A DNA stretch of 33,756 bases from a virus, in IMG/VR virus record IMGVR_UViG_3300031841_002825, positions 1 through 33,756 of that record, one strand, 5' to 3'. Below are positions 1 through 33,571 of the stretch, piece by piece (within the stretch, counting starts at the first letter, position 1; every line of letters begins with the position of its first letter). Made by a program: the position numbers and the translations under genes. Under the pieces are notes generated by a model. That model did no database searches and was not told where the DNA came from. It saw nothing but the letters and a program-made list of their open reading frames with translations.

Positions 1-319
1 ATCCATCGTACTTACCTACCGTAGCGGCATCCCCGTAAGTCTTTTCTGTTCCGTCGTAGAACACGTTGGCTCTGTTCTCATACCCAAACCTCGCAATCTT
101 TCTTACTCCGAGTGTGAGAGAGTAGTCAAATGGTGTCTCTATTACATCTGTCGTTAGAGATCCAGTGGACACAGAGTACAGCTCATCGTCTGACACAGAG
201 TTACCACCGTTTACTGCTGAGTAGAAGGTGGCTCTTCTAAGCACCTTTTTGTAAAAGCTGTTCTGCCCAGCCGTTGATAGAGATATCAGAAAAAGGATTG
301 TTAGTGCGAGAAATCTCAT
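1..319 (-). CDS. Secreted protein of unknown function, C-terminus cut by the window edge
   Basis: I translated this directly: it starts at the CAT at 317-319 and stays open for 106 codons to the left edge. The first residues, MRFLALTILFLISLSTAGQN, form a clear signal peptide (Arg, hydrophobic core, small residues before AGQ), so the product should leave the cytoplasm. The mature part begins NSFYKKVLRRATFYSAVNGG and later contains PFDYSLTLGVRKIARFGYEN followed by VFYDGTEKTYGDA. I recall similar KIARFGYEN proteins in marine Bacteroidota phages, but no function is established that I know of. The start overlaps the stop of the upstream secreted-protein gene as ATGA, so the two are probably translated together. 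Both proteins begin MRFL. It could be an envelope- or surface-acting late protein. The reading frame is certain; the role is unknown. Confidence 0.8.
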   Translation of the reverse strand, partial: MRFLALTILFLISLSTAGQNSFYKKVLRRATFYSAVNGGNSVSDDELYSVSTGSLTTDVIETPFDYSLTLGVRKIARFGYENRANVFYDGTEKTYGDAATVGKYDG

Positions 320-2460
320 TGCTTGATTATTCTTTCTACTACGATTCTGCCCTTATAATTTACCACAACCTCATAAAGGCCTTTAGGAAAGTATGTAAGG
401 TCTATTTGCTGCCCTGAAGCGGTTGACACTAGAAGTTGCCCAGACGCGCTGTAAACGTCTGCAAACGCCCCTATCGGCCCCTTGAAGTTTATCACCCCAT
501 TTGTTGGGTTTGGATAGAGCTTAATGAAAGACATCACCCACTCTTCGATTGACGTCACTCCATCGGAGCAGTACTGATACATGTCGATGCACACCTCATC
601 CCATGCTTCTTCACAGCAGTAAGGGTCAACCTCGATCACCCATGAGTAGCAGTAGTCGTTGGCCCAGTATGGTTCGCCAGGTCCAGTGATACATCCTGCG
701 TCGTACAGACACTCTTCGTTTTCTGGGATGTTTGCGTAAGGATTGTAGTTGGCCGCGTCAGGATCCATACACCCAGGCAGAGGCATCTCACAGCTACCAT
801 TGTCTGTGTTTGCGAGTGGGTCGTAGTTGATGGCGGCGGGGATGGTACACCCGTAGATGAATGGGATACAGCCCCCGTTGTCTGTGTTTGCTTCAGGGTT
901 GTAGTTGTATTGCGTGGGATCCATGCACCCAAACACGACCTCTTCACAATCTCCTGAGTCTGTGGCATCTGCGTTGTAGTTAAAAGCTGTTGGGTCTTGG
1001 CACCCCACAATCTCAAGCTCGTCACATACCCCGTCTGCATCCGTGTCATTTACGCATGCGTTGTTGCAATCGTAGTATTCGATAGGGTAGGTGCAAGATG
1101 CAGATACATTTGCCTCTGAGTCGTAGTTGCACGCAGTGGAATCGGTACATCCCTCTACAGCTGGTATGCAGAAGTCACCACACACTGGTACGCCTGTGTA
1201 TCTAAACGGGAACTTGATGATTGCATCTGTCCATGGGTTCGTGCCAGCCTCCATAAACACACCGTTTGGCCCGTCGAAGTAAAATCCGCACTGAGCAGCC
1301 GTAGTCTCTGCGTTTCCTTGAGTGAAGAAGATTACATCAACCGCTTCCCCTGAATACAATGGTATCTGAATCTCTTTCTCAAACTCGTCTACGGGGAACA
1401 TTGTAAACGGCCCAAAGATCTCATCACCTTGAACGACTCCAATCCAGCTGCCGAACCATCCGTCACCAGCTCCGTCCGTCAGGGTCAGAGTGAAGTAGCA
1501 GCTATCCTCGGTATCCATTGTGTTTGCGTCAGGATTGTAGTTGATAGAGCTCTCATCTGTACAGCCTAAAATCACCTCTGTTTCGCAGCTTCCGTCGTCA
1601 ATGACCGCAGTATGGTCGTACTCCACAAACAACGGATCGGTACATCCCTGAGGCACAGGCAACACGCACTCTTCAACCTCTATGGTGTCGCTGCTCGTGC
1701 TGCTGTACTGGAAGCTGTCCCCTACATAGTACAGCGTATCTCCGCAAAGCGTTGTAACTGAGAGGTTTCCGTCAACACCGCCAAAGCAACTACCGCACAT
1801 ACCATCTCCGTATGTGTCGTATACATTTACCTTGAACTCGGTGCCGACAGGTAGGCATACCGCATCGATTACTGGTACGCCTGTTGTTGTGTACCCCGAT
1901 CCATCTGCTACAATCTCACCATCTGGGAATGTAATCAAGTCCCAGCTAATCTCACCAGCGTAGGTGTCAGGGGTGACTGTAATAATGATGTTGTTTTCTC
2001 CCTCGTCACACTGCTCAGGTGGGAAGGAACATGGGCCTGGGGCATTGGCCCATGGGTTATAATCTAAAGCTCCTGGATCCATACACCCAAAGATTGGGGG
2101 AGGGCAGGGTAGAATTTCAAAAGGTATGGTAAGCTCGCTACCACCGAAGTCGTACACCGCCGTGTCCAGACCGCAAGGATTTCCTAAAGAGAACCACCCT
2201 TCACCATAGCCGCAGCAGATACCGTCTCCGTAAGAATCATAGATGGTGAAGTCATACTCACCAGCCTCAAGAAAGACAAGGCGTTCGGTATAAGAGTTGC
2301 TATAGATGACCCCAGGTGATTCTTCAACTACAAATCCATTTTCATCTGTAATCAACCAGCTGGTTTCTGACGAGTATAAGTCAGCTTGCAGTGCGACAAT
2401 CAACCACCCCTGCTGTGCTGAGGCAAACAGAGGCAAGAACATCAGCGGTAAAAATCTCAT
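316..2460 (-). CDS. Secreted Cys-rich repeat protein with T9SS type A sorting domain
   Basis: 714 residues. The N-terminus MRFLPLMFLPLFASAQQ is a signal peptide. Residues about 20-118 and 157-265 are two related beta-rich modules, each with a Y-D-[ST]-Y-G-D-G motif (75-80 and 215-220); a third, weaker module covers about 323-435. Eight repeats of the form GC-x-D/I-x(5)-NYN-x(2)-AN-x-C begin near 125, 272, 299, 437, 487, 511, 537 and 563. A DTDADGVCDELE Ca-binding-type motif lies at 472-483. Residues 590-632 form a Cys module containing DPYCCEEAWDEVC. The C-terminus (647-714) begins KLYPNPTNGVINF and matches the T9SS type A sorting domain, which directs export across the outer membrane and cell-surface attachment or release in Bacteroidota. 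All these modules are typical of flavobacterial secreted proteins. ATGA overlaps couple it to the upstream holin and the downstream secreted gene. Function is unknown: adhesion, receptor masking or spread of progeny are possible. Its GC content looks higher than that of the tail genes. Confidence 0.93.
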   Translation of the reverse strand: MRFLPLMFLPLFASAQQGWLIVALQADLYSSETSWLITDENGFVVEESPGVIYSNSYTERLVFLEAGEYDFTIYDSYGDGICCGYGEGWFSLGNPCGLDTAVYDFGGSELTIPFEILPCPPPIFGCMDPGALDYNPWANAPGPCSFPPEQCDEGENNIIITVTPDTYAGEISWDLITFPDGEIVADGSGYTTTGVPVIDAVCLPVGTEFKVNVYDTYGDGMCGSCFGGVDGNLSVTTLCGDTLYYVGDSFQYSSTSSDTIEVEECVLPVPQGCTDPLFVEYDHTAVIDDGSCETEVILGCTDESSINYNPDANTMDTEDSCYFTLTLTDGAGDGWFGSWIGVVQGDEIFGPFTMFPVDEFEKEIQIPLYSGEAVDVIFFTQGNAETTAAQCGFYFDGPNGVFMEAGTNPWTDAIIKFPFRYTGVPVCGDFCIPAVEGCTDSTACNYDSEANVSASCTYPIEYYDCNNACVNDTDADGVCDELEIVGCQDPTAFNYNADATDSGDCEEVVFGCMDPTQYNYNPEANTDNGGCIPFIYGCTIPAAINYDPLANTDNGSCEMPLPGCMDPDAANYNPYANIPENEECLYDAGCITGPGEPYWANDYCYSWVIEVDPYCCEEAWDEVCIDMYQYCSDGVTSIEEWVMSFIKLYPNPTNGVINFKGPIGAFADVYSASGQLLVSTASGQQIDLTYFPKGLYEVVVNYKGRIVVERIIKQ

Positions 2461-2894
2461 TTTTTAGCTTTCTCTATGGTTCTTCCAGCGAAGTAAGCGC
2501 CGAACGATGTTAGCATAAGTATCTCTAACAAAGATACATAGCTATCTTTTACGTTAAATGGTAGGTTATCAAGGGAATCCAGTACCATCGTTACCATAAA
2601 CATCGACATAAGGGCTATCAAAGTAGCTGGTCTGATGAGCTTTGCAAGCTTCACGTCCCCTCCCATGTCTGCCTTCCATCTCTCCGTGACGTTGTTCTGG
2701 AATGCAATCTCTGCGTCAATCTTTGCTTTAGCCTCAGCTGGGTCTATGTTTGGCTCTTTGTCGAGCAAGTTCTTTACAACACCAAGCGCACCCTGATCTG
2801 GCAACAGGTCCCCGACAGTGTCGAGGATGCCTGGCGCCTTCTGCTTCAACCATCCGCCAAGGGCGGTATCTTTTATTTTTTTTGCCTCACTCAT
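2457..2894 (-). CDS. Holin, three-TM (Holin_3TMs) type
   Basis: 145 residues. The N-terminal half (1-70) is soluble and partly amphipathic (GILDTVGDLLPDQGALGVV). The motif ERWKADM at 71-77 and LIRPATLIAL at 86-95 lead into a first membrane segment at about 88-106 and a second at about 118-136. It ends GAYFAGRTIEKAKK. The RWKADM, then RP-x-TL and hydrophobic helix, then GRTIEK arrangement is the pattern of the phage 3TM holin superfamily, which forms inner-membrane lesions that time lysis. It starts at a TAATG junction with the giant cargo protein and its stop overlaps the next gene as ATGA. No endolysin is adjacent within the window. The family call is from recognised motifs, not a search. 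Confidence 0.75.
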   Translation of the reverse strand: MSEAKKIKDTALGGWLKQKAPGILDTVGDLLPDQGALGVVKNLLDKEPNIDPAEAKAKIDAEIAFQNNVTERWKADMGGDVKLAKLIRPATLIALMSMFMVTMVLDSLDNLPFNVKDSYVSLLEILMLTSFGAYFAGRTIEKAKK

Positions 2895-5800
2895 TATTCT
2901 TCAACTTTTGGGTAATACTTGTAATATTCTTTTAGCACTTTCTCCATAAGCAGCATTTCAGACTCCTCTATAATTCTAATCTTGTTTTCTTTTTCTGCCC
3001 AAGCATCAGCCACCTTAAGATTAAACATGTCGTATCCGAGTTCATCCTGTTGTTTCTGAAGAAGTTTCTTGCTCTCTTGCAACTCAGCCCACTCCATTTC
3101 ACTGTCCATGATCAATTTCTGGACAGCCAAGGCTCCCGAATATCTAGCCTGGGCACCGCCAACGGTGTCTTCAACGGCCCTGTAGTCGTCCAGTCTATCA
3201 TCTCTACTTGGCAGCGGCTTATCTTTGTTTTCCATAAGATCTTCAATGTCACCAAACTCAGCCAAGTATGAGCCAACCACGGCTTTTGCTTCGTAATAGT
3301 TTCCATACGCAGCATATTCAAAATCCTCTTGATAGAATTTTTTTATAATAGGCCATGTATCCACACCTCCCTGACCAGCAGCCATATCTAAAATGCCTTC
3401 TGCAGCATCACCAAACATAATGTATGAGCTACCTAAATAGTTCTGTAATAGATAGTTGAATGCGTCTGGATTAAAATCAAGGTCCCCACTAATCTGGTCG
3501 CTACCTCCACTAACCCATGATTCATTCAGCACATTCGCAATATCTTGCATCAATGATGGGGAATCGATAGCTTGCGAAGCTCTAGATTGTCCAGGGCGTG
3601 CTTCCCTAAAAATTGGATTGCCGAAGCCATCTACATTCTGAGACGCGTCAATCATTGGTGCAATCGGGTCTATTTCCGTGAGCGCACGAACAACTAAGCC
3701 AGGTTGACTTATTGGGTCTATCGATTTTGTTGGATCATCCTCCACACCAACGCCACGGAAATAAATGGGAGACATATTTTCAACGAAAGAAGATCCCATA
3801 TACAAAGCTCCATCCACAGGGTCTCTCTCGCCACTCTGAACTTCAGCAACTGCGACCCCAATATCACTTATGCCGCCATAACCATACGCCTTCGGTATTA
3901 GAATCCTTGCTCCAGTTGAATCTCCAGGAAGCATAAACACATAATTCCTCTTTTTAACCTGATCTGGAATCTTGTCGTAGAATGTTACGCCATCGGTGTC
4001 TGTTTCTGTGACTGCCTGATTGAATTGTGTTAGCATATAGCTAAAACCAATACTACCCATAAGAAGCTTTTGAGCATTAGTCAATCTCTGAATTGGATTT
4101 CTAACATTACCCTCTGGATCAACCTTCGGGCGAAGGGCGATAGAAGTCTTGGCAGTCATATCAGCGCCCTGCAGTCCAGCATTCAAAAAGAACTTCATAG
4201 AGCTAATCATAGGAGTAGTATTTCCAGACCTATTGAAGTCAATACTCACATCCTTTGCTACGGCTGCAGCATAATCTGGCTGCACCCCCTGTTTTCTCAA
4301 AGCCTTAAACACTTGGAATCTAAAGACGTTTTCAAAGGTGTTATTGAATGATTCGATAAGACCGAAGCTGTTGTCATACATCCACTGTGTGGCTTTTTGA
4401 CCTCGAACGGCATCGTCAACCTCACCAGCCAATTGCTTAGATAAGTCTTCTAATGGTTGGCTGTAAGCCCACCCAGTTTTGCCGCCATGAGCTTTGTATT
4501 CTTGGTACAACACATTTTCTTGACCTCTAAAATTTGTACCAGGTCCAAATTCATCAGCCGCAATAGCCTTAAATGATCTGTAGAATTCACCGCGTCCAAC
4601 TAAGTGAGAATCAGATACAAGCTGTTTAATGTTTATTGGTTTTCCTTGTGCGTTATAAAGAGCGTAACCAAATTCCTTTTCTGCAGCACTCAAGGCGTTA
4701 ACTATTGAACTTTGATAATCACGAACGCTGTTTCCTGCCCAGAAGGTAGTAGAATATTGAGTGTACATCTTCGGCACAAGACTCATCATCCTTTGCAGCG
4801 GCTGAATAATTTTGACATAAAACTGATTGTCGCTTGGGCCAGAAGTTTTAAATGGCTTTGCGTATGCCTCGTTAGCAAACGTGATATATTTTTTCTGCCC
4901 GTCGAGATATACCATGACGGTATTACTAGCCAATGAATTGCCTTCATCCGAAACGGTATAATGCTTGGGGTTGGGGTTTGAAGTGAGGAGTTCGTAGAGG
5001 CCTTGGAGAGCCACGTTCTTCTGGCCAGCCACATGGATTTGTGTATTCTGCTGTATAGTTTTTGCAAGAATACTTCCAGTCTCATCGCTACGTCCAGATG
5101 CTTTTCTTAGTTGATCTGGAATCCCACCCTGCCTTCCTCTAGATGGGAAAATTGCTTCAATAATCTCATTGTCAATGAGGGCAATATTACCATCAGTAGC
5201 CTTCATGCCCTCACCAGTCAGTGTGACATAGTTCTCCGAGGTGGCCTGCATTTTATCGTACATAGCACGATCAATGAAGCCATATGCAAGAGCAGCATCT
5301 CTAGTATTTTGCTGGATGGCTCTATGTTCTTCTCTTACAGATTCAAAGGATTGCTTGAGCTCTTCTGGAAGTGAGTTTAGGAATGCTTCTGCATCCGCAT
5401 CAGACATACCGCTACCTTTTCTTGTAGCGATCTTTTCACGCAAGAAATTAACCCTGCTCTGCTGCGATGTCGTAAGCTGCGTGGCATCGCCATTGACAGA
5501 CCCCAACAGAGCGTCTAGCTCTGCTTTGTTGTCTGCAAGAACTTTCTTGTTTCTTTCTGGAGCAAACTTGGCTACAGACCACCTGTCATAAAGGCCAATG
5601 ATATTTTTCTCATAGACCTCTGGAAGGTTCTCGTAAAAACCTGCATCTGTGGTTTTTTGCAATTGTCTCAACTGATCTATCAACCCACCATCACGTGATC
5701 TAAGATTGATCATTTCTTCAACCTGGTATGCAGCCTTAGATACCGCGAGCTTTTGCAAAACTTCAAAATCTTGATTAAGCGAAACTCTTCCAGCCTGGTT

Positions 5801-8161
5801 CTCTGTGTCCAGATACTCCATAATAGACCTTTGGAGCATGTTCACATCTTCATACTTATCAATGAATTCTACATACCACCAATTAGACAGGCCTGGCTCA
5901 AAGTCTGTAGACATAGGTTTCCCATCCCCATCCGTAGCTCTTGGCTGATAAATATCTGGAGGCGGAGTAGTGGCATCTTTTGATGCAATGTCTGGGTCGA
6001 CCTCATACAATTTCTCAATGTTGAGTCTCTTCTCCCTGATAGCATCAAGATCATTTTTAATGGCCTTGCCAGCATCTCCGTTTGGATCCTCCAAAGAGTT
6101 AAGTTGACGCAGTTTTGAGTTGTAATCTCTATGAAGATTCAAGATATTCTCATAATCTTCAGGATTCATTCTCAAATAGAATTGTTCGTCAGCACTCATG
6201 GTGCTTAGCTTCTGCTCCTCAAGGGCAACAAGCTGACGTTCAGCATAGATCTGTTCGTTTTTATCCGTACTGTTTCTCAGGATTTCTAAGAACTTGGTTC
6301 TCTGCTGATTGATTTTGATGTTTCCACCGTTTCTGCCGACAGCATCTCTAGCCAACGCGTTAGCAATCTGCGCTTTGGTTTGCACATAGTTTACCGCAGA
6401 AGCAGACCCAGTGACCCCAACGGTAATGGGAACCACGCCAAGGGCTACGTCAAGACCAAGTTCAAAAACATCATTCGCCTCATACTCTTGTCCAGATTGC
6501 TCAAGCATACTTACGTACTGAGCCATGGCAGCAGTTGAAGCTGTAACGCTATTGACTGGAACTGAATAACCAAGATTTGTAAGGTGTGAATTCCACCACG
6601 AGTTCATCTCTTTTCCAACGTTGGCAGACGATCCAGCACCCTTCAATGCCTTTAGAAAAAACAATGATGATGCCCCAGCGGAAACAAAATCAGTACCAAA
6701 TACAGTGCTGAGGTGACCCCACCGAGCACTGTTATCAAAGCTCTCAGTGTATTTAGACATAAGCTCAGGGTCACCGCCAGTAGCAAGCATCATCTCCTCA
6801 TGCCCAATAGTAACACCGTCCTTTGTGTATCTCTTAAACATAGGGTGGTTACGAGTCCTTGCGGATTCAACTGCCGTGCTGAGAGTTGCCCCCTCTACAC
6901 CAATAAGGCCTACACTCAACCACCATGGGGCTGCAGCACCTCCAGTAGCAGTAGTAGTGACTGCTGCCGCTGGAATGAGAACAGCCATAGTAGGAGTAGA
7001 TTCCGCCAAAAACCCACTAAGCTGCATGAGGCCATTAGCAAACTGCATGTCGGTGAAGTTGCCACTCATACTCTCTGTGAATTGAAGAGTATTGGCCCTG
7101 ATCTCGTCAGCTTTCTCCCTCATCTGCTCAACATTCTTGGCCTCACCGCCAAACATGTTATATACAGCATTGACCAAATCAATGCCAGCAGCGTCAAACT
7201 TGTCAACGAGATAGCCAGAAAACTTTGGGACAGGCATGGTTGCCGCAAAGACCTCAGAGTTTCCAGATGCCATCTCAAATCCGTCAAATTTTAGAAACGG
7301 TGTGTTCCCAACCTGTCCCTCACCAGTAAGATCGAGCATGGATCCATAGTTCTCAAGCATATATTGCTCTGTATACTTGAGAGCTTCTTGGCTTTGCCTA
7401 ATGTTTTTTGGCATGGCGTCAAGCATGGAGGTAGCGACGCTCTCATTGATTTGAGATGTAAGATGCTTACTGACTGCCTTGACCTTGTTGCGATATATCT
7501 TATCCTCTGGCATGGGTGTAACAAAAGCGTCCCCAATCATTGGGACACTGGCCCCAGCCGTTGGATCAACGACATAGCTTGACTTATACTCAATGCCGTT
7601 TCTCTCTAAATACGCGTCATCTTTTGCTAGCTCTTCGGAGATTTTAGCAAGGTTGCCATCAACAGAATTCCACCACCATTTACCTCCATTCACAAAATCT
7701 GAGAATGCAGATTCTATTTGGGGGGTAATGTGTTCGCTACCCAGCCCATCCATAATTCTGATAAAACCAGCCTTTTGAAAGGCATCGTAATGAACAGGGT
7801 CAATTTCAAGCCTTGCCCTGTTAGACGGTGTGTCTTCCCATGGGGCCACCTCGCCCGTCAGGGGGTCAACACTAGGGTCTCTAAGCCCGTCAATCTGAGT
7901 GCCTACGTTAGAGTCTGGCTGTGGAGCTACAGGTGAAACCGAAGAACCAAGATCTTGTCCTCCCTGAGGAGCTGTAGCTTGCGCCGACTCCGTAACTCCC
8001 TCTCCCGAATCGGACTGTGAGGTCGAAGTATCGTCTTTTTTTTTTAAGTACTCATTAAAATCTGAGACGCCACGCATCTGAAGGCTTCGACCAATAAATT
8101 GATCGTTTTTTCCCATGTTGCGCTGGTCGGCAATAAACTGCAAGATATCTTCTTCCTCCAT
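2894..8161 (-). CDS. Giant internal virion/ejection protein with LPD38-like polyvalent region
   Basis: 1755 residues. The N-terminus (1-40) is a short helical segment followed by a Ser/Gln/Asp-rich linker (44-110). Hydrophobic stretches at about 384-430 (TMAVLIPAAAVTTTATGGAA, then WWLSVGLIGVEG) and 567-590 could cross or insert into a membrane. Residues about 600-980 are mostly helical and charged. VMVYLDGQKKYITF (1082-1095), then TTFWAGNSVRDYQSSIVNAL (1138-1157), then FRFQVFKALRKQG and SIDFNRSGN (1306-1314) with KFFLNAGLQG (1323-1332), match what I know of the large polyvalent protein-associated domain LPD38 found in phage proteins that travel inside the virion and are ejected with DNA. No catalytic motif is evident. 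It is coupled to the preceding internal protein (TGATG) and the following holin (TAATG). A run of ten A occurs in the coding strand at codons 39-43. Confidence 0.78.
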   Translation of the reverse strand: MEEEDILQFIADQRNMGKNDQFIGRSLQMRGVSDFNEYLKKKDDTSTSQSDSGEGVTESAQATAPQGGQDLGSSVSPVAPQPDSNVGTQIDGLRDPSVDPLTGEVAPWEDTPSNRARLEIDPVHYDAFQKAGFIRIMDGLGSEHITPQIESAFSDFVNGGKWWWNSVDGNLAKISEELAKDDAYLERNGIEYKSSYVVDPTAGASVPMIGDAFVTPMPEDKIYRNKVKAVSKHLTSQINESVATSMLDAMPKNIRQSQEALKYTEQYMLENYGSMLDLTGEGQVGNTPFLKFDGFEMASGNSEVFAATMPVPKFSGYLVDKFDAAGIDLVNAVYNMFGGEAKNVEQMREKADEIRANTLQFTESMSGNFTDMQFANGLMQLSGFLAESTPTMAVLIPAAAVTTTATGGAAAPWWLSVGLIGVEGATLSTAVESARTRNHPMFKRYTKDGVTIGHEEMMLATGGDPELMSKYTESFDNSARWGHLSTVFGTDFVSAGASSLFFLKALKGAGSSANVGKEMNSWWNSHLTNLGYSVPVNSVTASTAAMAQYVSMLEQSGQEYEANDVFELGLDVALGVVPITVGVTGSASAVNYVQTKAQIANALARDAVGRNGGNIKINQQRTKFLEILRNSTDKNEQIYAERQLVALEEQKLSTMSADEQFYLRMNPEDYENILNLHRDYNSKLRQLNSLEDPNGDAGKAIKNDLDAIREKRLNIEKLYEVDPDIASKDATTPPPDIYQPRATDGDGKPMSTDFEPGLSNWWYVEFIDKYEDVNMLQRSIMEYLDTENQAGRVSLNQDFEVLQKLAVSKAAYQVEEMINLRSRDGGLIDQLRQLQKTTDAGFYENLPEVYEKNIIGLYDRWSVAKFAPERNKKVLADNKAELDALLGSVNGDATQLTTSQQSRVNFLREKIATRKGSGMSDADAEAFLNSLPEELKQSFESVREEHRAIQQNTRDAALAYGFIDRAMYDKMQATSENYVTLTGEGMKATDGNIALIDNEIIEAIFPSRGRQGGIPDQLRKASGRSDETGSILAKTIQQNTQIHVAGQKNVALQGLYELLTSNPNPKHYTVSDEGNSLASNTVMVYLDGQKKYITFANEAYAKPFKTSGPSDNQFYVKIIQPLQRMMSLVPKMYTQYSTTFWAGNSVRDYQSSIVNALSAAEKEFGYALYNAQGKPINIKQLVSDSHLVGRGEFYRSFKAIAADEFGPGTNFRGQENVLYQEYKAHGGKTGWAYSQPLEDLSKQLAGEVDDAVRGQKATQWMYDNSFGLIESFNNTFENVFRFQVFKALRKQGVQPDYAAAVAKDVSIDFNRSGNTTPMISSMKFFLNAGLQGADMTAKTSIALRPKVDPEGNVRNPIQRLTNAQKLLMGSIGFSYMLTQFNQAVTETDTDGVTFYDKIPDQVKKRNYVFMLPGDSTGARILIPKAYGYGGISDIGVAVAEVQSGERDPVDGALYMGSSFVENMSPIYFRGVGVEDDPTKSIDPISQPGLVVRALTEIDPIAPMIDASQNVDGFGNPIFREARPGQSRASQAIDSPSLMQDIANVLNESWVSGGSDQISGDLDFNPDAFNYLLQNYLGSSYIMFGDAAEGILDMAAGQGGVDTWPIIKKFYQEDFEYAAYGNYYEAKAVVGSYLAEFGDIEDLMENKDKPLPSRDDRLDDYRAVEDTVGGAQARYSGALAVQKLIMDSEMEWAELQESKKLLQKQQDELGYDMFNLKVADAWAEKENKIRIIEESEMLLMEKVLKEYYKYYPKVEE

Positions 8162-22704: not shown

Positions 22705-24141
22705 TTAGCCCTTGATAACAACGTGCTGGTTAGCAGCGCGAGTGACCAAGTTAATTTCAGAACGGTAGTGGAACGTAGCAACGTCAGCTCCAGTGTCGCC
22801 ATTGTTGGTGTGTCCCAAGACACCGCCACCAGTCACCCAGTGCTCCATTTCGCGAGAGTAGCCATTTGCTTCCTTGTAGTACATAGCCAACGCAGGAGCC
22901 TTAGCGCCTGAACGAGGATCAGCAACTTGAGTCAAAGGAATCATAGAGCCCTGCAAGTAGTTAGAAGCGCCCAACAACGTTGGATCGTTCAACAACTTCC
23001 AGTCGTGCTTGTGGAACGTGTAACCACCGCGAGTAAACGACTTAAAGCCAAGCTTGACAGCCATATCAGCGTCGTTATTGAACGCACCGAACTGACCAGC
23101 CAAGCCTGCAGTCACACCAGTAGAAACACCAGAAGCGAGCATGTCGTCGATAGCGAGATCTTGCTTTCTGTTCAAGTACATAGCGTACTCAGAAGGAGCA
23201 CCCTGCTTGTCGAGTTCCAAGATCAAGTCATCAAATTCAGCAAAGCTATCGATTGGGTTAGCATTCGCATTAGAGATAACGATACCTCTGTCTTCAACAG
23301 CCGTGATGTAACCCTCAGAACCAGCAAAAGTTGCACCGAGGTCGTTGTCGGTGTCGTCGCTTGTCGTAGCTGCGTTCTTCTCACCGAAGAGCAACATCAT
23401 CTCACGACGATCCTCAAAGCGCTTACGAGCTTCTTGCTCACCGTACATAAACCATCTGTAGTCGCCATTGCCGAGATTCACCCAACCGATATTGGTTGCT
23501 TGTGATCCATTGACTTGGTAGCGATCCTTGACGATCATGAATGGGTTGCTACGCTTAACAACGTCAGAATCTTGGAAGTGAGTAGGTTGATCGGTTCCTT
23601 GAGCGTACAAATTACCCAAGTGAATCAACTTAAGTCCAGCAGTTGTAGATTCTCCAGGTGAGGTGACAGCGCCGTCGAGTCTCTCCAACTTGACAACAGG
23701 GTTCGTGTCGGTTGCCGCATTTTCGGCCTCGTTAACAATATATCTGAGGCCAGAGTCAGCGCTCATAACGACATCGTTTGCTTGCAACAAACCAGCAACG
23801 TGTGCTGCGCCGTCACCAGAAGCTGAGGTATCAATCGTAAAGTCGACAGTTCCAGGTGCGCCTGCGCCTCCAGTACCATTGTTAGAGAATGTACCCGTGT
23901 AGACTCTGTGACGACGGCCAGCTTCCCACCAATCGACTTGATCAGAAGTACCGCCTGAATTCACAGCACCAACGAGGTTCAAAAATCCAGTAATGCCTTG
24001 GTCGCCGTAAGACTCAACCAAGTCGGGCATGACAAAATCCTTAGTCGTCTTGATAAGGTTGTCAATAGTCGTGTATTTTTCGGGCGTCAGCCGCAGGTCC
24101 GAAGAGGCCTGGTCAATAGTAGCCCCAGTAATAGTAGCCAT
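22705..24141 (-). CDS. Major capsid protein
   Basis: 478 residues. It begins MATITGATIDQASSDLRLTP and has an N-terminal helical arm (KYTTIDNLIKTTKDFVMPDL), a long beta-rich middle with Gly/Thr loops (about 70-190), a central helix region (EQEARKRFEDRREMMLLFGE), and a C-terminal part with GYTFHKHDWKLLNDP and the end FHYRSEINLVTRAANQHVVI. The last motif is one I know from major capsid proteins of Bacteroidota podoviruses. Length, position 12 bases after the scaffold-like gene, and a codon choice and GC content that look distinct from the tail genes fit a highly expressed HK97-fold capsid protein. The fold itself is inferred. Confidence 0.85.
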   Translation of the reverse strand: MATITGATIDQASSDLRLTPEKYTTIDNLIKTTKDFVMPDLVESYGDQGITGFLNLVGAVNSGGTSDQVDWWEAGRRHRVYTGTFSNNGTGGAGAPGTVDFTIDTSASGDGAAHVAGLLQANDVVMSADSGLRYIVNEAENAATDTNPVVKLERLDGAVTSPGESTTAGLKLIHLGNLYAQGTDQPTHFQDSDVVKRSNPFMIVKDRYQVNGSQATNIGWVNLGNGDYRWFMYGEQEARKRFEDRREMMLLFGEKNAATTSDDTDNDLGATFAGSEGYITAVEDRGIVISNANANPIDSFAEFDDLILELDKQGAPSEYAMYLNRKQDLAIDDMLASGVSTGVTAGLAGQFGAFNNDADMAVKLGFKSFTRGGYTFHKHDWKLLNDPTLLGASNYLQGSMIPLTQVADPRSGAKAPALAMYYKEANGYSREMEHWVTGGGVLGHTNNGDTGADVATFHYRSEINLVTRAANQHVVIKG

Positions 24142-28546: not shown

Positions 28547-29004
28547 CTTTTTGCACCGCTAGTAATCTTAGTAACGTCTTCATTTATTACAAAAGCTCCA
28601 CGCAAAACGGTTGTGTGTGTGTCAACTCCAGATGTTGTAGGTAAAATATATTGAAGATCATATACATGACGACCCGCAGGTACATTGCGCATAGTAGCAG
28701 CGGTAGCTTTAATAGTGACATTTCCGCTATCATCGACAACAAAAGGCTCAAAATAAGCTCCTCCAGGAATCTCTGCAGTACCAAGGTCTACACCCTTAAG
28801 ACCCTTTTCTGTAGTAGCAATAAGAGGGCTTGTAGATCTTTTAGCCGTAGGCCACACCTGCATAACAAAAGAGTAATTAGATGTTGCAAGCGTCAGTCCA
28901 GTGCCAGTGGAATCCTTGAGAGTTAGAGTAAGCTCAAATGTGTCTCCTTGACGGCACGTAATATCCAGAACTTCTGATACGTCTAAGTTTACTTTATTGG
29001 CCAT
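28543..29004 (-). CDS. Ig/BppU-like accessory virion protein
   Basis: 153 residues. CRQGDTFELTLTLKDSTGTG (17-36), then YSFVMQVWPTAKRST, a Gly-rich turn, and NVPAGRHVYDLQYIL (107-121) ending VLRGAFVINEDVTKITSGAK follow the pattern [RQ]GDTF-x-L-x-x-x-L-D, M-x-VR, AG-x-YVYDLQ, and L-x-G-x-F-x-V-x-x-D-V-T. I know this from small Ig-like/BppU-N-like phage proteins attached to baseplates or fibres. It overlaps the portal end by 11 bases and is coupled by ATGA to the fibre-like gene, which suggests it links that fibre to the virion. Confidence 0.7.
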   Translation of the reverse strand: MANKVNLDVSEVLDITCRQGDTFELTLTLKDSTGTGLTLATSNYSFVMQVWPTAKRSTSPLIATTEKGLKGVDLGTAEIPGGAYFEPFVVDDSGNVTIKATAATMRNVPAGRHVYDLQYILPTTSGVDTHTTVLRGAFVINEDVTKITSGAKR

Positions 29005-31423
29005 TTTGCATATTCATTAAAACATTTCTCATAGGATTGCCATCATCTCCTTGTAACTCTGTTCTCTGCCCTTTTCTTTGAGAGATAAGCTTTGACTGCT
29101 CTACAGCCTGTTTTTTAACCCTTTCATCCTTTCGATCCTCTTTAAGAACCTCAAGCTTTTCTTTAAAGTCCTCTTCAGTTTCTTTAAATCCAAGAGTAGC
29201 CTTAGCACGAATGGTTTCAATCTCCTTATTGAACTCGTGTCTCATTGCCGCCATCTGTGCCTCAAGTTGAGCTTTAAGCTGCATTTTCTGAGCTTCAATT
29301 TGTGCTTCAGCTTGCATTTTTTGACCCTCAATTTGAAGCTGTATGGCTTGAGATTGCTGCGCCATTTGAGCCTGCATCTGCTGTTGCTGTGCAGCCATTC
29401 TCTGTGCTTGTTCAAACTTCTTTTTTCTTCTAACAATTAGAAGTCTTTCTGCTTGATTTATATCTTTAAGCTCTCTAATGGCCATGGCATCCTCAAGATC
29501 AATCTCCTTTTGTCCAAGAGAGATTTGTATTGCTTGCTCCAAGTATGCTTGGTCTTTATCATCCATATCCTTTTGAACCTGGACACCAAAATTGTACATA
29601 GGAAGTCTAGAGAAGCTAGTAAGAACACTCATATTGGTTTGACCAATAGCATTTCTATAAACCTCCATAATAACAGAATCTTCTGGCAAAATCTGCAAAC
29701 ACTTGACGATATCATTACAAACATTCTTGTAAAGAATCATCGAAGCATTTGTAATGTCATATGTTGCATTATTAGATGCGGCAATGGCTTGCTCACGCAC
29801 GCCCACCAAGGCTTCTGACTTTGGAGTGCTGGCATCTACAACTTCATTAATACCTGTAGTATCACGTATCATTCTGAGGTAGTGGTTATACAAACCAATA
29901 AGCTCATTAATGTTTCTAATACTATTTCCAATCTCACGGATTGGAGGGTTTTGAAAGCCTCCCTCTGGGTTTTTACTTCTATAGTAAAAAACACCAGTTT
30001 GTTCATAAATGTCATGCAGGTCCAATGGCTGCAATTCACCACCCTTTCCAAGCTGCACATTTTCCAACCCTTCAATGTCAATAATCAAGCCATCTGGTTT
30101 AGCCTTAGCGATAGCTTGTTGAATTTTAAGGTGAGTTAACTGAAGCATGTCTGCAAACCCGACACAACTTGATACCATTGATTTTGGCATCATGTCAGTA
30201 AGATTTGTTGCTACAACAGAATAAGACATTCTTGCCTTACTAATGTCGTAGATGTTTTTGGGCACATTGTGCATTCTGCCATACCCAAATAGATAATCAG
30301 TGCCAAGGATGAAATAACCCTTATACACATTTACGATCTCCATTTTATATGGCTTGCGCTCAAAGACACTACCTGCTTTTTCTTTATAGTCAAATCCTTC
30401 GTAAAAGAAGTTTCTATTCCCAAATCTATTTTCCTTCTCCTCAAAGTACATGCAGTCTGTCGACAAAAACTCAAATTCCAAAACATCAACAGAGTACTCA
30501 TCGTATTCATAAATGTTTTTTCCTATGGTGCTGTCATACGCCTGACCATTTGCGCTTCGCCCAGAAACCTGTTTAACGATTTTTTGAAAATCTTCTTCTT
30601 CAAGTTCGCCACTAGCAATTCTTTTTAGCTCCTGGATCGGCATGGTTCTAATGTGCCCAGCATAAGTAATATCCTCAAAGCTTGGGTCATTGGTTTCGCT
30701 ATGAATAAAATCCTTTGGATCTACATAGTGAGTCTTGATACCGTAGTTTGGGTCATTTGATCTTTTAACTACAGCCATTCCATTAGTAGCCAGATCATTT
30801 ACGCATCTTCTAAAGATGTTGTCGTCAAAACTATTCCACGACAATGTCATATCTGTTGCCACTTGAGCAGCAATCTCAGCATCACTTTTGACATTCTCAC
30901 CAATAAAAATTTCAGCTTCAGCTTCATTGTCTGGAATCATCTCTGGGTCCATGCCAATTGTAGCCCCAGTCTTCTCCTTAAATGCCATAAGCTGTTTCTT
31001 GAGAGCTACTTGTATTTCAATCCTTTTTTTATCCCTATTCTTTTCAGAAGAAGACAATGGGTCTACAGCCTCAAGGTTCGGATATAAATTCCTACCAAGG
31101 ATTTTATTTACTACAATTCTGACAAACTTTGGAAGAATTGGAACTGGAGTAAAATCAAGATTCATCAAACTTCCATCACCAGAATTTGGGTCAAGATTGT
31201 TTAAGAGTCTTTTATAAATAGTAGTATCCTGTACGCCATTTGCGTATTCTTTGTTCCTTTTAAATAGATTATACCGTTTTGAGAACAAAGAAGAACTGTC
31301 GGTTCTCTTGCCCCACTGAGACTCAATAGCCTTAGCATATTTTAATCCATACGCTCTGCTCTCTTTTTCTTCCTGAGGAGCAAGCGGGTCTGGAAAATTT
31401 TTTTTTCCGCTATATTGTTTCAT
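28994..31423 (-). CDS. Portal protein
   Basis: 809 residues. The N-terminal part (20-120) contains RYNLFKRNKEYANGVQDTTI and LDFTPVPILPKFVRIVVNKI, followed by wing and stem-like regions including NDLATNGMAVVKRSNDPNYG and IRNINELIGLYNHYLRMIRD with TTGINEVVDASTPKSEAL. The last motif (IGLYNHYL, then TG-[IV]-NE) is characteristic of portal proteins. From about 665 to 780 is a long Gln/Ala/Met-rich coiled coil (starting FEQAQRMAAQQQQMQAQM), as seen in crAss-like and related large portals. It should form the dodecameric vertex ring through which DNA is packaged. It follows the terminase gene by 33 bases, with a TATATTTGC box in that gap, and overlaps the next gene by 11 bases. Confidence 0.88.
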   Translation of the reverse strand: MKQYSGKKNFPDPLAPQEEKESRAYGLKYAKAIESQWGKRTDSSSLFSKRYNLFKRNKEYANGVQDTTIYKRLLNNLDPNSGDGSLMNLDFTPVPILPKFVRIVVNKILGRNLYPNLEAVDPLSSSEKNRDKKRIEIQVALKKQLMAFKEKTGATIGMDPEMIPDNEAEAEIFIGENVKSDAEIAAQVATDMTLSWNSFDDNIFRRCVNDLATNGMAVVKRSNDPNYGIKTHYVDPKDFIHSETNDPSFEDITYAGHIRTMPIQELKRIASGELEEEDFQKIVKQVSGRSANGQAYDSTIGKNIYEYDEYSVDVLEFEFLSTDCMYFEEKENRFGNRNFFYEGFDYKEKAGSVFERKPYKMEIVNVYKGYFILGTDYLFGYGRMHNVPKNIYDISKARMSYSVVATNLTDMMPKSMVSSCVGFADMLQLTHLKIQQAIAKAKPDGLIIDIEGLENVQLGKGGELQPLDLHDIYEQTGVFYYRSKNPEGGFQNPPIREIGNSIRNINELIGLYNHYLRMIRDTTGINEVVDASTPKSEALVGVREQAIAASNNATYDITNASMILYKNVCNDIVKCLQILPEDSVIMEVYRNAIGQTNMSVLTSFSRLPMYNFGVQVQKDMDDKDQAYLEQAIQISLGQKEIDLEDAMAIRELKDINQAERLLIVRRKKKFEQAQRMAAQQQQMQAQMAQQSQAIQLQIEGQKMQAEAQIEAQKMQLKAQLEAQMAAMRHEFNKEIETIRAKATLGFKETEEDFKEKLEVLKEDRKDERVKKQAVEQSKLISQRKGQRTELQGDDGNPMRNVLMNMQNGQ

Positions 31424-31456: not shown

Positions 31457-33571
31457 TTAGCCGATGACTTTATATCTCCTAAAAAATCGCCTCTCATCAA
31501 AGCTGTCAACCTTTTTCTTTTTAACCTTTTGAGCGGCGAGAAGAGCCAAGCCAGAACTAATTGTTAAGTCAAACTTTGTTCTATTGTCTATCTTATATCC
31601 TATCCAATCTTCAAGAGTTTCATTAAAATACATTTTACCCATCTCAGCCTTTTCATGATTGGCCCCGACATGATTATGAATGTAAGATTCAATTGCATGA
31701 GCATGAGCCTGAATGACATCTTGAGAGTTTGATGGGATACCCTTGGTCTTCACTTTTACCTTAGCTGTACTGCTGCTTAAATGTTGAGGTCGATCCATTA
31801 AGTATCCATCGTAACCCCTTGATTCAAAGTATCTTGCAATACCGTACTTATTGTTTTCAATTAAGATGGGATACCCATAAAATACAGCTGCCATTAATAC
31901 ATCTTCATAAAAGATTTTTGCTAATGGCGGCCTAGAGGCATACTCTACAACAAACATGTTTGATGGATATTCCATATGAAATTTGTTGTATAAATGTAAA
32001 GCGCCCTTAGATCCTCTCCCATCTACAGTGGCGTCTAGGTCATAAGAGTCAACACCTCCGCATCCAATGTCTGAGTTTGGAGCAACTCGCTTCCCTCTAA
32101 CTATTTCTTTTTTATTTCGAAATTCAGGCGGAGGCATCCACGCCACCTTAAATCTTCCATTTGGATCTGGGCTAAAAACAACTTCCGTATCGCTCACGCC
32201 GCCCTTCCATACAAAATTTCCAACAACAACTGGGTTGGGAAATAGCTCATCATTGTATTGTATCTGTTCATATATTTTTCCAATATTGAACAAACTCCCA
32301 TCAATGCTATCCCTAAAGGCCTCGTCTTCTGTAAATGGAAATTGACGAGTAACCTCATTTAACTCTGATGGATCATGCTTCAAACTCTGTCTTTCATTTT
32401 TAAGATAGGTTTTAGCGCCAATCAAAATATCTTCTCCATCGAGGGCTTCAATAGTTTCTTTAGGGTCTTCAACTACTGGGTTTCCAAATTTGTCAAAAAA
32501 CCCTTCTAAAGCGTGAAATGATGGAATGAAAATCCTATATAGTCCCGTTCTGGTCCGTCCATTCGCGTTCCTCTCGTTCGGATCCGAATCCTTCCACAAT
32601 TCCTTGTACTCCCTCCCACCCTTGTCCATCGGATTTACGGTGCTTCCTACGAGGGCTTTTCCCACGATTTTTCTTCCGACGATCAAACAGGTCCGCTGAA
32701 TCCTCCATGCGTCCCTTATGTCTGTAGGTTTTTCCCATTTTCCAGCCTCATCTAGATACAGCAAATGTAGCTTCTCGCCATCATATGCGTTGTTAGTTGT
32801 GTTCTTCCAGTTTATAACCGTATTAAGAGCTTCGCCCGTCTGCGCAGTCTTATTCTTCTTCGTGATTCTCTTACTCGGCTCGCGAAAAGCCAGCTCCATG
32901 CGTGGGTTAGTGGTACCATCTTGAATTGGTTTAAAGAAGAAAGGGTAGTGACGAAACATGTACACTACTTTCTTCATGAAAATATTTTCTTGAGCGTCCT
33001 TACCAGTTTTAGACTGAATTCCTAGGAGCTTATCTTTTACTTGTGAAGCCTCATCAAGAAGTACAGCGGAGCAGATATTAGTATATCCGCTACGCCTGCA
33101 CTTCGTATAGAGCTGCCCAATACATCTAGGATCCGCCTCACACGCAGCTAAATGTACGAAAATTTCTCTTTGGAAGTTTAAAAAGCTCGGATACCCTATA
33201 TCCATCCGAGTCCATTGAAGCATCATGTAGTGCCTACCCGTAATATATGTAGGGACACCATTATTGTAAAACCAAAAGCCTTCACGCCTGCGGCGAAACT
33301 CCTCTTCGATATACGGAGAAAACTTTTGTCGAAACTCCCTTGGCATCTCCCCCCACTCATCCATAGAACGAATCCTAGACAGCTCTTCAGGCATAGGACG
33401 CCTCTCCCACAGCTGCAAGTCGTTTGACTTTCCATATCCCTCAATTTCTTTTTCGGGAGGCTGAGCGGGAAGTACAATGAGTAGCCCACTGAGTTCAATA
33501 ATCTCACCCTGTGTACCGTTGGGACAAATTGCAATAGCATGCTCATCGTAGTTATCGACCCTGACCAGCAT
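31457..33571 (-). CDS. terL: Terminase large subunit
   Basis: 704 residues. The ATPase domain has KCRRSGYT (157-164) in the Walker A position, unusual in lacking the classic GKS/T, and LHLLYLDEAGKW (268-279) as Walker B with catalytic Glu. A coupling-motif-like VGSTVNP lies at 308-314. The nuclease domain (RuvC-like) has CGGVDSYDLD (504-513), IENNKYG (571-577) and KFDLTISSGL (666-675), giving the expected acidic residues D508, E572 and D668. It packages concatemeric DNA into the prohead via the portal encoded next. The start overlaps the upstream 42-residue gene by 20 bases. The first third has a more GC-rich stretch (about 32540-32700) than the C-terminal part. Confidence 0.9.
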   Translation of the reverse strand: MLVRVDNYDEHAIAICPNGTQGEIIELSGLLIVLPAQPPEKEIEGYGKSNDLQLWERRPMPEELSRIRSMDEWGEMPREFRQKFSPYIEEEFRRRREGFWFYNNGVPTYITGRHYMMLQWTRMDIGYPSFLNFQREIFVHLAACEADPRCIGQLYTKCRRSGYTNICSAVLLDEASQVKDKLLGIQSKTGKDAQENIFMKKVVYMFRHYPFFFKPIQDGTTNPRMELAFREPSKRITKKNKTAQTGEALNTVINWKNTTNNAYDGEKLHLLYLDEAGKWEKPTDIRDAWRIQRTCLIVGRKIVGKALVGSTVNPMDKGGREYKELWKDSDPNERNANGRTRTGLYRIFIPSFHALEGFFDKFGNPVVEDPKETIEALDGEDILIGAKTYLKNERQSLKHDPSELNEVTRQFPFTEDEAFRDSIDGSLFNIGKIYEQIQYNDELFPNPVVVGNFVWKGGVSDTEVVFSPDPNGRFKVAWMPPPEFRNKKEIVRGKRVAPNSDIGCGGVDSYDLDATVDGRGSKGALHLYNKFHMEYPSNMFVVEYASRPPLAKIFYEDVLMAAVFYGYPILIENNKYGIARYFESRGYDGYLMDRPQHLSSSTAKVKVKTKGIPSNSQDVIQAHAHAIESYIHNHVGANHEKAEMGKMYFNETLEDWIGYKIDNRTKFDLTISSGLALLAAQKVKKKKVDSFDERRFFRRYKVIG

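Follow-up and report, generated by a model that had tools for sequence, protein, structure and literature searches.

The sprB-sprF gene pair encodes a type B cargo protein of the type IX secretion system (T9SS), followed by an outer-membrane barrel of the PorP/SprF kind. T9SS cargo encoded by a phage has been reported once before, in Cryophage, a Bacteroidetes phage with variable proteins carrying T9SS type A sorting domains, and its authors already suggested hijacking of the host system together with superinfection exclusion (Bellas et al. 2020, PMC7468147). The Cryophage cargo bodies comprise an endoglucanase, a GH39 protein and a PA14 protein, found in one phage with variants (PMC7468147). 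In phage T5, superinfection exclusion protects against adsorption both to infected cells and to cell fragments (PMC9586334); the small lipoprotein responsible, Llp, has been described as an early product.

Here, we describe a widespread, conserved phage cassette that pairs a T9SS-tagged cargo gene with the gene for a predicted outer-membrane barrel. The novelty lies in this cassette rather than in phage T9SS cargo as such: the openly accessible papers that we searched mention neither a conserved pairing of cargo and barrel, nor phage-borne type B tags, nor a wide spread among marine phages. Judged by its description, Cryophage is set apart from the cassette described here, which joins Cys-repeat cargo to a barrel, occurs in many phages, lies beside a holin and includes type B tags as well. 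The phage proteins share with bacterial type A and type B cargo (TIGR04183 and TIGR04131) the same sorting domains, in sequence and fold, and a signal-like N-terminus; unlike bacterial cargo, they are encoded in a late phage operon and have a phage-specific barrel as partner. As in sprB-sprF, the cargo gene precedes an outer-membrane barrel gene, but no relationship between the phage barrel and PorP/SprF could be detected, and most of the phage cargo is type A. The likeness to T5 Llp is by analogy, a phage-made envelope protein that would be expected to alter which receptors are accessible, both on the infected cell and on fragments of it (PMC9586334); unlike Llp, it would consist of a large T9SS-tagged protein plus a barrel, encoded in a late operon.

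The DNA analyzed here (the window) comprises the 33,756 bases of a virus record from IMG/VR, in which the virion, packaging and lysis genes all lie on the minus strand. These include a large terminase (31457..33571; phrog_6681, E 3e-207), a portal (28994..31423; phrog_6547, E 1.5e-191) and a major-capsid-like virion protein (22705..24141; phrog_13704, E 7e-113), alongside other virion proteins and a large protein of 1781 aa. A 1755-aa protein with an LPD38 domain (PF18857, 48 bits) is encoded at 2894..8161 (minus strand), by the final large gene ahead of those for lysis and export. Its counterparts in L002, L007 and G028 are likewise very large (1735 to 3102 aa) and hold the same place, the LPD38 domain being named for the window's copy. 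Next on the minus strand come a holin (2457..2894; phrog_3427, E 9e-20), the T9SS-tagged, Cys-rich cargo gene (316..2460; 714 aa) and, at the contig end, the 5' part of an outer-membrane barrel gene (2..319; 106 of about 344 aa). Overlaps of 1 to 4 bases link every gene in the stretch that starts with the LPD38 gene and ends with the truncated barrel gene, and the ATGA-type overlaps that the initial annotation placed on either side of the cargo gene are indeed found, at -4 bases on both the holin and the barrel side. The same annotation called the operon holin-led; the holin does adjoin the cargo gene, but it is not first, since packaging and virion genes on that strand occupy about 30 kb ahead of it. 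By position, the cargo gene thus shares strand and gene overlaps with late virion and holin genes.

The cargo protein is strongly acidic (114 acidic versus 13 basic residues) and contains 39 cysteines. Residues 1-16 (MRFLPLMFLPLFASAQ; 2413..2460, minus strand) form a signal-like N-terminus ending in ASAQ, with a hydrophobic peak of 2.2 compared with at most 1.8 in the other window genes tested, and L10, the P10 region and Q16 are conserved among relatives. The signal peptide proposed earlier is predicted here by hydrophobicity; this hydrophobicity test, which is passed by 65 of 69 long cargo ORFs, replaced a stricter signal-peptide pattern that 25 of the 69 passed. Residues 125-584 (709..2088, minus strand) hold eight GC...NY[ND]...C repeats (residues 125-144, 272-292, 299-321, 437-456, 486-505, 511-531, 537-557 and 563-584), some of which are separated by predicted beta-rich modules; cysteines are conserved in relatives. 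The count of eight Cys/NYN repeats thus stands, but the strict NYN occurs in half of them, the others having NYD (two), DYN (one) or EYD (one). Both expected YD[ST]YGDG motifs are present, as YDSYGDG (residues 74-80) and YDTYGDG (residues 214-220), and a third variant, TDGAGDG, lies at residues 328-334. Residues 590-631 (568..693, minus strand) form a GC..YWxNDxCYxWVIxxDPYCCExxWDxxC module that is largely invariant across eight relatives; its DPYCC..WD..C part, also noted previously, spans residues 612-624, and the same type of module recurs in the cargo bodies of L094, L099, L104 and G217.

Three beta modules had been proposed as well, and three beta-rich blocks are predicted (residues 17-116, 155-252 and 320-423), at low confidence (AlphaFold, eight alignment rows, mean pLDDT 48). 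Given this whole-model mean, only the C-terminal part of the model was used and no fold is claimed for the rest. The cargo protein matched no carbohydrate-binding or adhesin family in Pfam or NCBIfam. Repeats of the cargo kind, and YD.YGDG modules, occur in very large marine Flavobacteriales proteins, and distant homologous modules in Flavobacteriales genomes share 27-45% identity with the cargo. Two like Cys/NYN repeats are also found in a protein of Synechococcus phage S-CAM3 annotated as virion structural (NC_031906.1:36382-37932; L115:3569-5119), which has neither a signal-like N-terminus nor a T9SS C-terminal domain.

The KLYPNPTNG C-terminal domain (CTD; residues 648-714 of 714; 319..519, minus strand), assigned to T9SS in the initial annotation, is a type A sorting domain by several lines of evidence. 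It scores 33.6 bits against NCBIfam TIGR04183 (curated cut-off 23; E 2.8e-8), so that a search of residues 647-714 against T9SS models is significant, and 26.6 bits against Pfam PF18962, slightly below the cut-off of 27. A profile of eight relatives matches T9SS CTDs in the PDB, with 8glk_D at E 5e-6 and gingipain CTDs weakly. In the predicted structure, whose body is of low confidence, the CTD has a local pLDDT of about 63-80, and its fold matches the CTDs of NucA and mirolase (Foldseek: 8glk_D, TMt 0.76; mirolase CTD 8qb1_A, TMt 0.62; both with probability 1.00). The cargo therefore carries a real T9SS type A tag, as judged by three sequence libraries and by fold.

A scan of IMG/VR with the cargo protein found 11 relatives (53-71% identity), nearly all full length and beside phage genes. 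Because these eleven keep the protein among phage genes, the cargo is a phage gene and not a host chimera, and a chimeric left end of the window is ruled out by the gene order kept in relatives. The usual order is holin, tagged gene, barrel, a 94-aa protein with a single hydrophobic segment, and a small secreted thioredoxin-like protein. An amidase takes the place of the upstream holin in L004, L005 and L010, the cassette genes are ordered differently in L007, L008 and L011, and tail-fibre-like genes come after the tagged gene in L007 and L008. The 94-aa protein behind the barrel (L002:11175-11459 and relatives) has a coiled-coil-like tail in addition to its hydrophobic segment and is 82-95% identical in several relatives. 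The thioredoxin-like protein behind the barrel (112-121 aa; L002:11463-11828, L007:7604-7951 and relatives) matches PF00085 at E 5e-4, below the cut-off, and lacks CXXC at the usual place; a role as an active thioredoxin for disulphides is therefore not claimed.

The product of 2..319 is 67% identical to the L002 barrel over the part present. A full-length relative is modeled, at low confidence, as a many-stranded barrel, and the 50 matches listed by Foldseek for this model are all outer-membrane barrels, with E values from 2e-7. All 80 barrel ORFs tested for hydrophobicity have a signal-like N-terminus. The cut-off neighbor of the cargo gene is thus predicted to be an outer-membrane beta-barrel. 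Membership of the PorP/SprF family was considered and rejected: PF11751 gave no hit in Pfam at E up to 1, and hhalign against ten SprF-like proteins gave a probability of 0.5% with a shallow phage profile.

When IMG/VR was searched with the barrel profile alone, blind to T9SS, at least 543 stretches were found to encode the barrel, making this lineage frequent in marine viromes. Within 5 kb of the barrel, 79 of the best 80 of these loci have an ORF with a T9SS CTD, as detected by an HMM trained on CTDs from phages (14 sequences); only L259 is an exception, because the locus edge truncates it, and its contig does carry a CTD. The tagged ORF lies directly upstream of the barrel in 76 of the best 80 loci, with a 4-base overlap in 44. 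The public TIGR04183 model agrees, matching all 46 whole contigs compared with it, 43 of them above the cut-off. Clustering the barrels of these 80 loci gives 53 groups at 95% identity (34 at 90%), and the loci therefore do not represent one phage sampled repeatedly; they are the top matches to a query from tagged phages, and linkage may be looser for barrels further removed from it. Among 396 genomes from the order of a marine Flavobacteriales MAG, two contain the barrel, and in each of them the contig that bears it is phage-like. One of these (G460 C16) also holds terminase, portal and capsid genes, and its barrel, 94-aa and thioredoxin-like genes stand without an adjacent tagged gene, a point against the envelope-remodeling explanation given below. 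The other (G217 C32) has the entire four-gene cassette, in a Flavobacteriales genome that also encodes SprA, the T9SS translocon. The barrel is a phage-specific marker rather than a common cell gene.

Cargo bodies range from about 460 to more than 1,000 aa and contain between 2 and 18 repeats when counted with a permissive pattern, while the PNP motif at the start of the CTD is kept in 78 of 79 cargos, the remaining one having PSP. Divergence of cargo and backbone disagrees between phages (portal 90% and cargo 44% in G017; portal 34% and cargo 53% in G007), so that cargo bodies either diverge or move between phages without regard to the backbone, and G012 has a different cargo, of 412 aa, at a second place. 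Since the L004 body is nearly unchanged from that of L002 while its CTD differs yet is still recognizable (pN 0.07 versus 0.36), the export tag is kept as a module. Comparisons with the window protein are saturated for most pairs, so dN/dS was taken from closer relative pairs only, giving about 0.05-0.09 for the cargo body, 0.05-0.29 for the CTD and 0.02-0.05 for the barrel; these closer pairs show the signature of purifying selection on both cargo and barrel. We read the cargo as a module that is exchanged between phages independently of the backbone, with its export tag under selection.

Type B tags also occur. A type B-tagged gene is found in 6 of 33 long contigs, and in G028 it occupies the place after the holin; these phages therefore use two kinds of T9SS tag. 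In that genome, the holin is followed by a secreted protein that resembles M43 metalloproteases and includes a dockerin-like part, and then by a type B-tagged repeat protein (L204:17665-19581, G028:39578-40726; L204/L205). In L309, L311 and L312 (contigs G051, G058 and G062), the cargo-barrel pair has a type B-tagged gene nearby, encoded on the other strand, and long DTxYVTDTLY-like repeats are present in L311, L312 and L314.

Of 32 contigs selected solely for their portal similarity, 8 have tagged proteins, many of the remainder being fragments. Eight of these contigs are at least 40 kb long, and five match TIGR04183 (G012, G017, G018, G019 and G022); in G028 the tag is of type B, G025 stops at the holin and is uninformative, and G030, with no tagged gene after the holin, is a true absence. 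TIGR04183 found no match in the cultured portal relatives phi38:1, Calle_1, elemoE and MW202828, nor in phi14:2 and phi18:1, and the cassette is therefore dispensable for infecting flavobacteria in general. Searches of cultured phages by tblastn with the cargo and with the barrel found no full-length relative, and a CTD search of cultured phages gave two weak places only. The cultured portal relatives (about 30% identity) all infect Cellulophaga, Flavobacterium, Tenacibaculum or Maribacter. Because of these hosts, and because the cassette occurs in a genome with SprA, cassette phages likely infect Flavobacteriales; for the window itself, we infer the same.

How might such a cassette act? The cargo would enter the periplasm through its signal peptide, presumably by Sec export, and the host T9SS would then carry it across the outer membrane by means of the type A CTD, while the barrel encoded directly behind it would insert in the outer membrane. 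Export to the cell surface is very probable. Conservation of the cargo-barrel pair in many marine phages suggests that the outer surface of the infected cell is probably rebuilt late in infection, with cargo and barrel coating or altering it. Masked receptors could keep sister phages from superinfecting a doomed cell and progeny from being lost on the cell or its debris. Gliding and T9SS components and their adhesins have been implicated in phage adsorption in these bacteria, and SprB and RemA have been suggested as phage receptors (PMC13288928). Because a late, variable, surface-directed protein fits this purpose and adsorption in such hosts seems to involve gliding adhesins that depend on T9SS, masking of receptors or of the surface is our best functional guess for the benefit, a reasonable one although it falls somewhat short of probable. 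No relative with a known masking function was found, and the early timing described for Llp, set against the late operon of the cargo gene, is a point against masking. Taken as a whole, a late-expressed envelope-remodeling cassette with receptor masking as its benefit is the explanation that we consider somewhat probable on the present sequence comparisons. A more specific variant, and a rather doubtful one, would be a dedicated two-part export system of marine flavophages in which the barrel holds or positions modular, exchangeable T9SS cargo with type A and type B tags as a surface coat, with no known counterpart.

Other uses of an exported protein deserve weighing against receptor masking. 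The cargo could be an adhesin or matrix protein that sticks the infected cell to particles, cells or glycans and thereby aids the spread of progeny. Its resemblance to very large marine Flavobacteriales proteins fits such a role, as do its acidic body and D.DGD-type motifs, which could bind calcium; with no adhesin or carbohydrate-binding family matched and little time between late expression and lysis for a benefit to accrue, we regard it as unlikely. That the tag itself is a decoy, loading T9SS or its partners and so blocking secretion of the receptor adhesins SprB and RemA, would agree with the proposed receptor role of these proteins (PMC13288928) and with the presence of both tag types, but a decoy would call for neither a dedicated barrel partner nor a long body that is conserved, rich in disulphides and subject to purifying selection, and this explanation is improbable.

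Equally improbable is a role in lysis, with the barrel and the exported cargo destabilizing the outer membrane much like spanins in other systems: the cargo adjoins the holin (or the amidase in L004) and the 94-aa neighbor has a hydrophobic segment and coiled-coil-like tail, yet a variable protein marked for secretion past the outer membrane is unlike a lysis part, and related flavophages do without the tag. The repeats in the S-CAM3 protein and the tail-fibre-like genes of L007 and L008 might point to a virion fibre or decoration protein; since virions assemble in the cytoplasm while the cargo is marked for export, and the S-CAM3 protein lacks both signal-like N-terminus and CTD, this destination is very improbable. 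Finally, the distant Flavobacteriales modules could reflect host sequence fused to phage through misassembly, or a transient acquisition without function, for which purifying selection and the same pairing in dozens of independent contigs leave practically no room.

If surface remodeling by exported cargo is correct, the chief protein-export apparatus of Bacteroidota serves phages in remaking the host surface ahead of lysis, and control of superinfection in flavophages becomes testable. The barrel would then serve as a phage-specific marker gene for locating such cargo, and the cargo genes would offer a natural repertoire of interchangeable domains exported by T9SS. It would also follow that proteins with T9SS domains, when encoded on viral contigs, should not be written off as host contamination. 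Two further type A domains, both unrelated to the cassette, were observed in other phage sequences: one in a 187-aa protein of a 642-kb phage genome (LR756502.1:325937-326140; L359) and one in an unverified fecal phage clone that may be bacterial (MT836089.1:10943-11146; L358).
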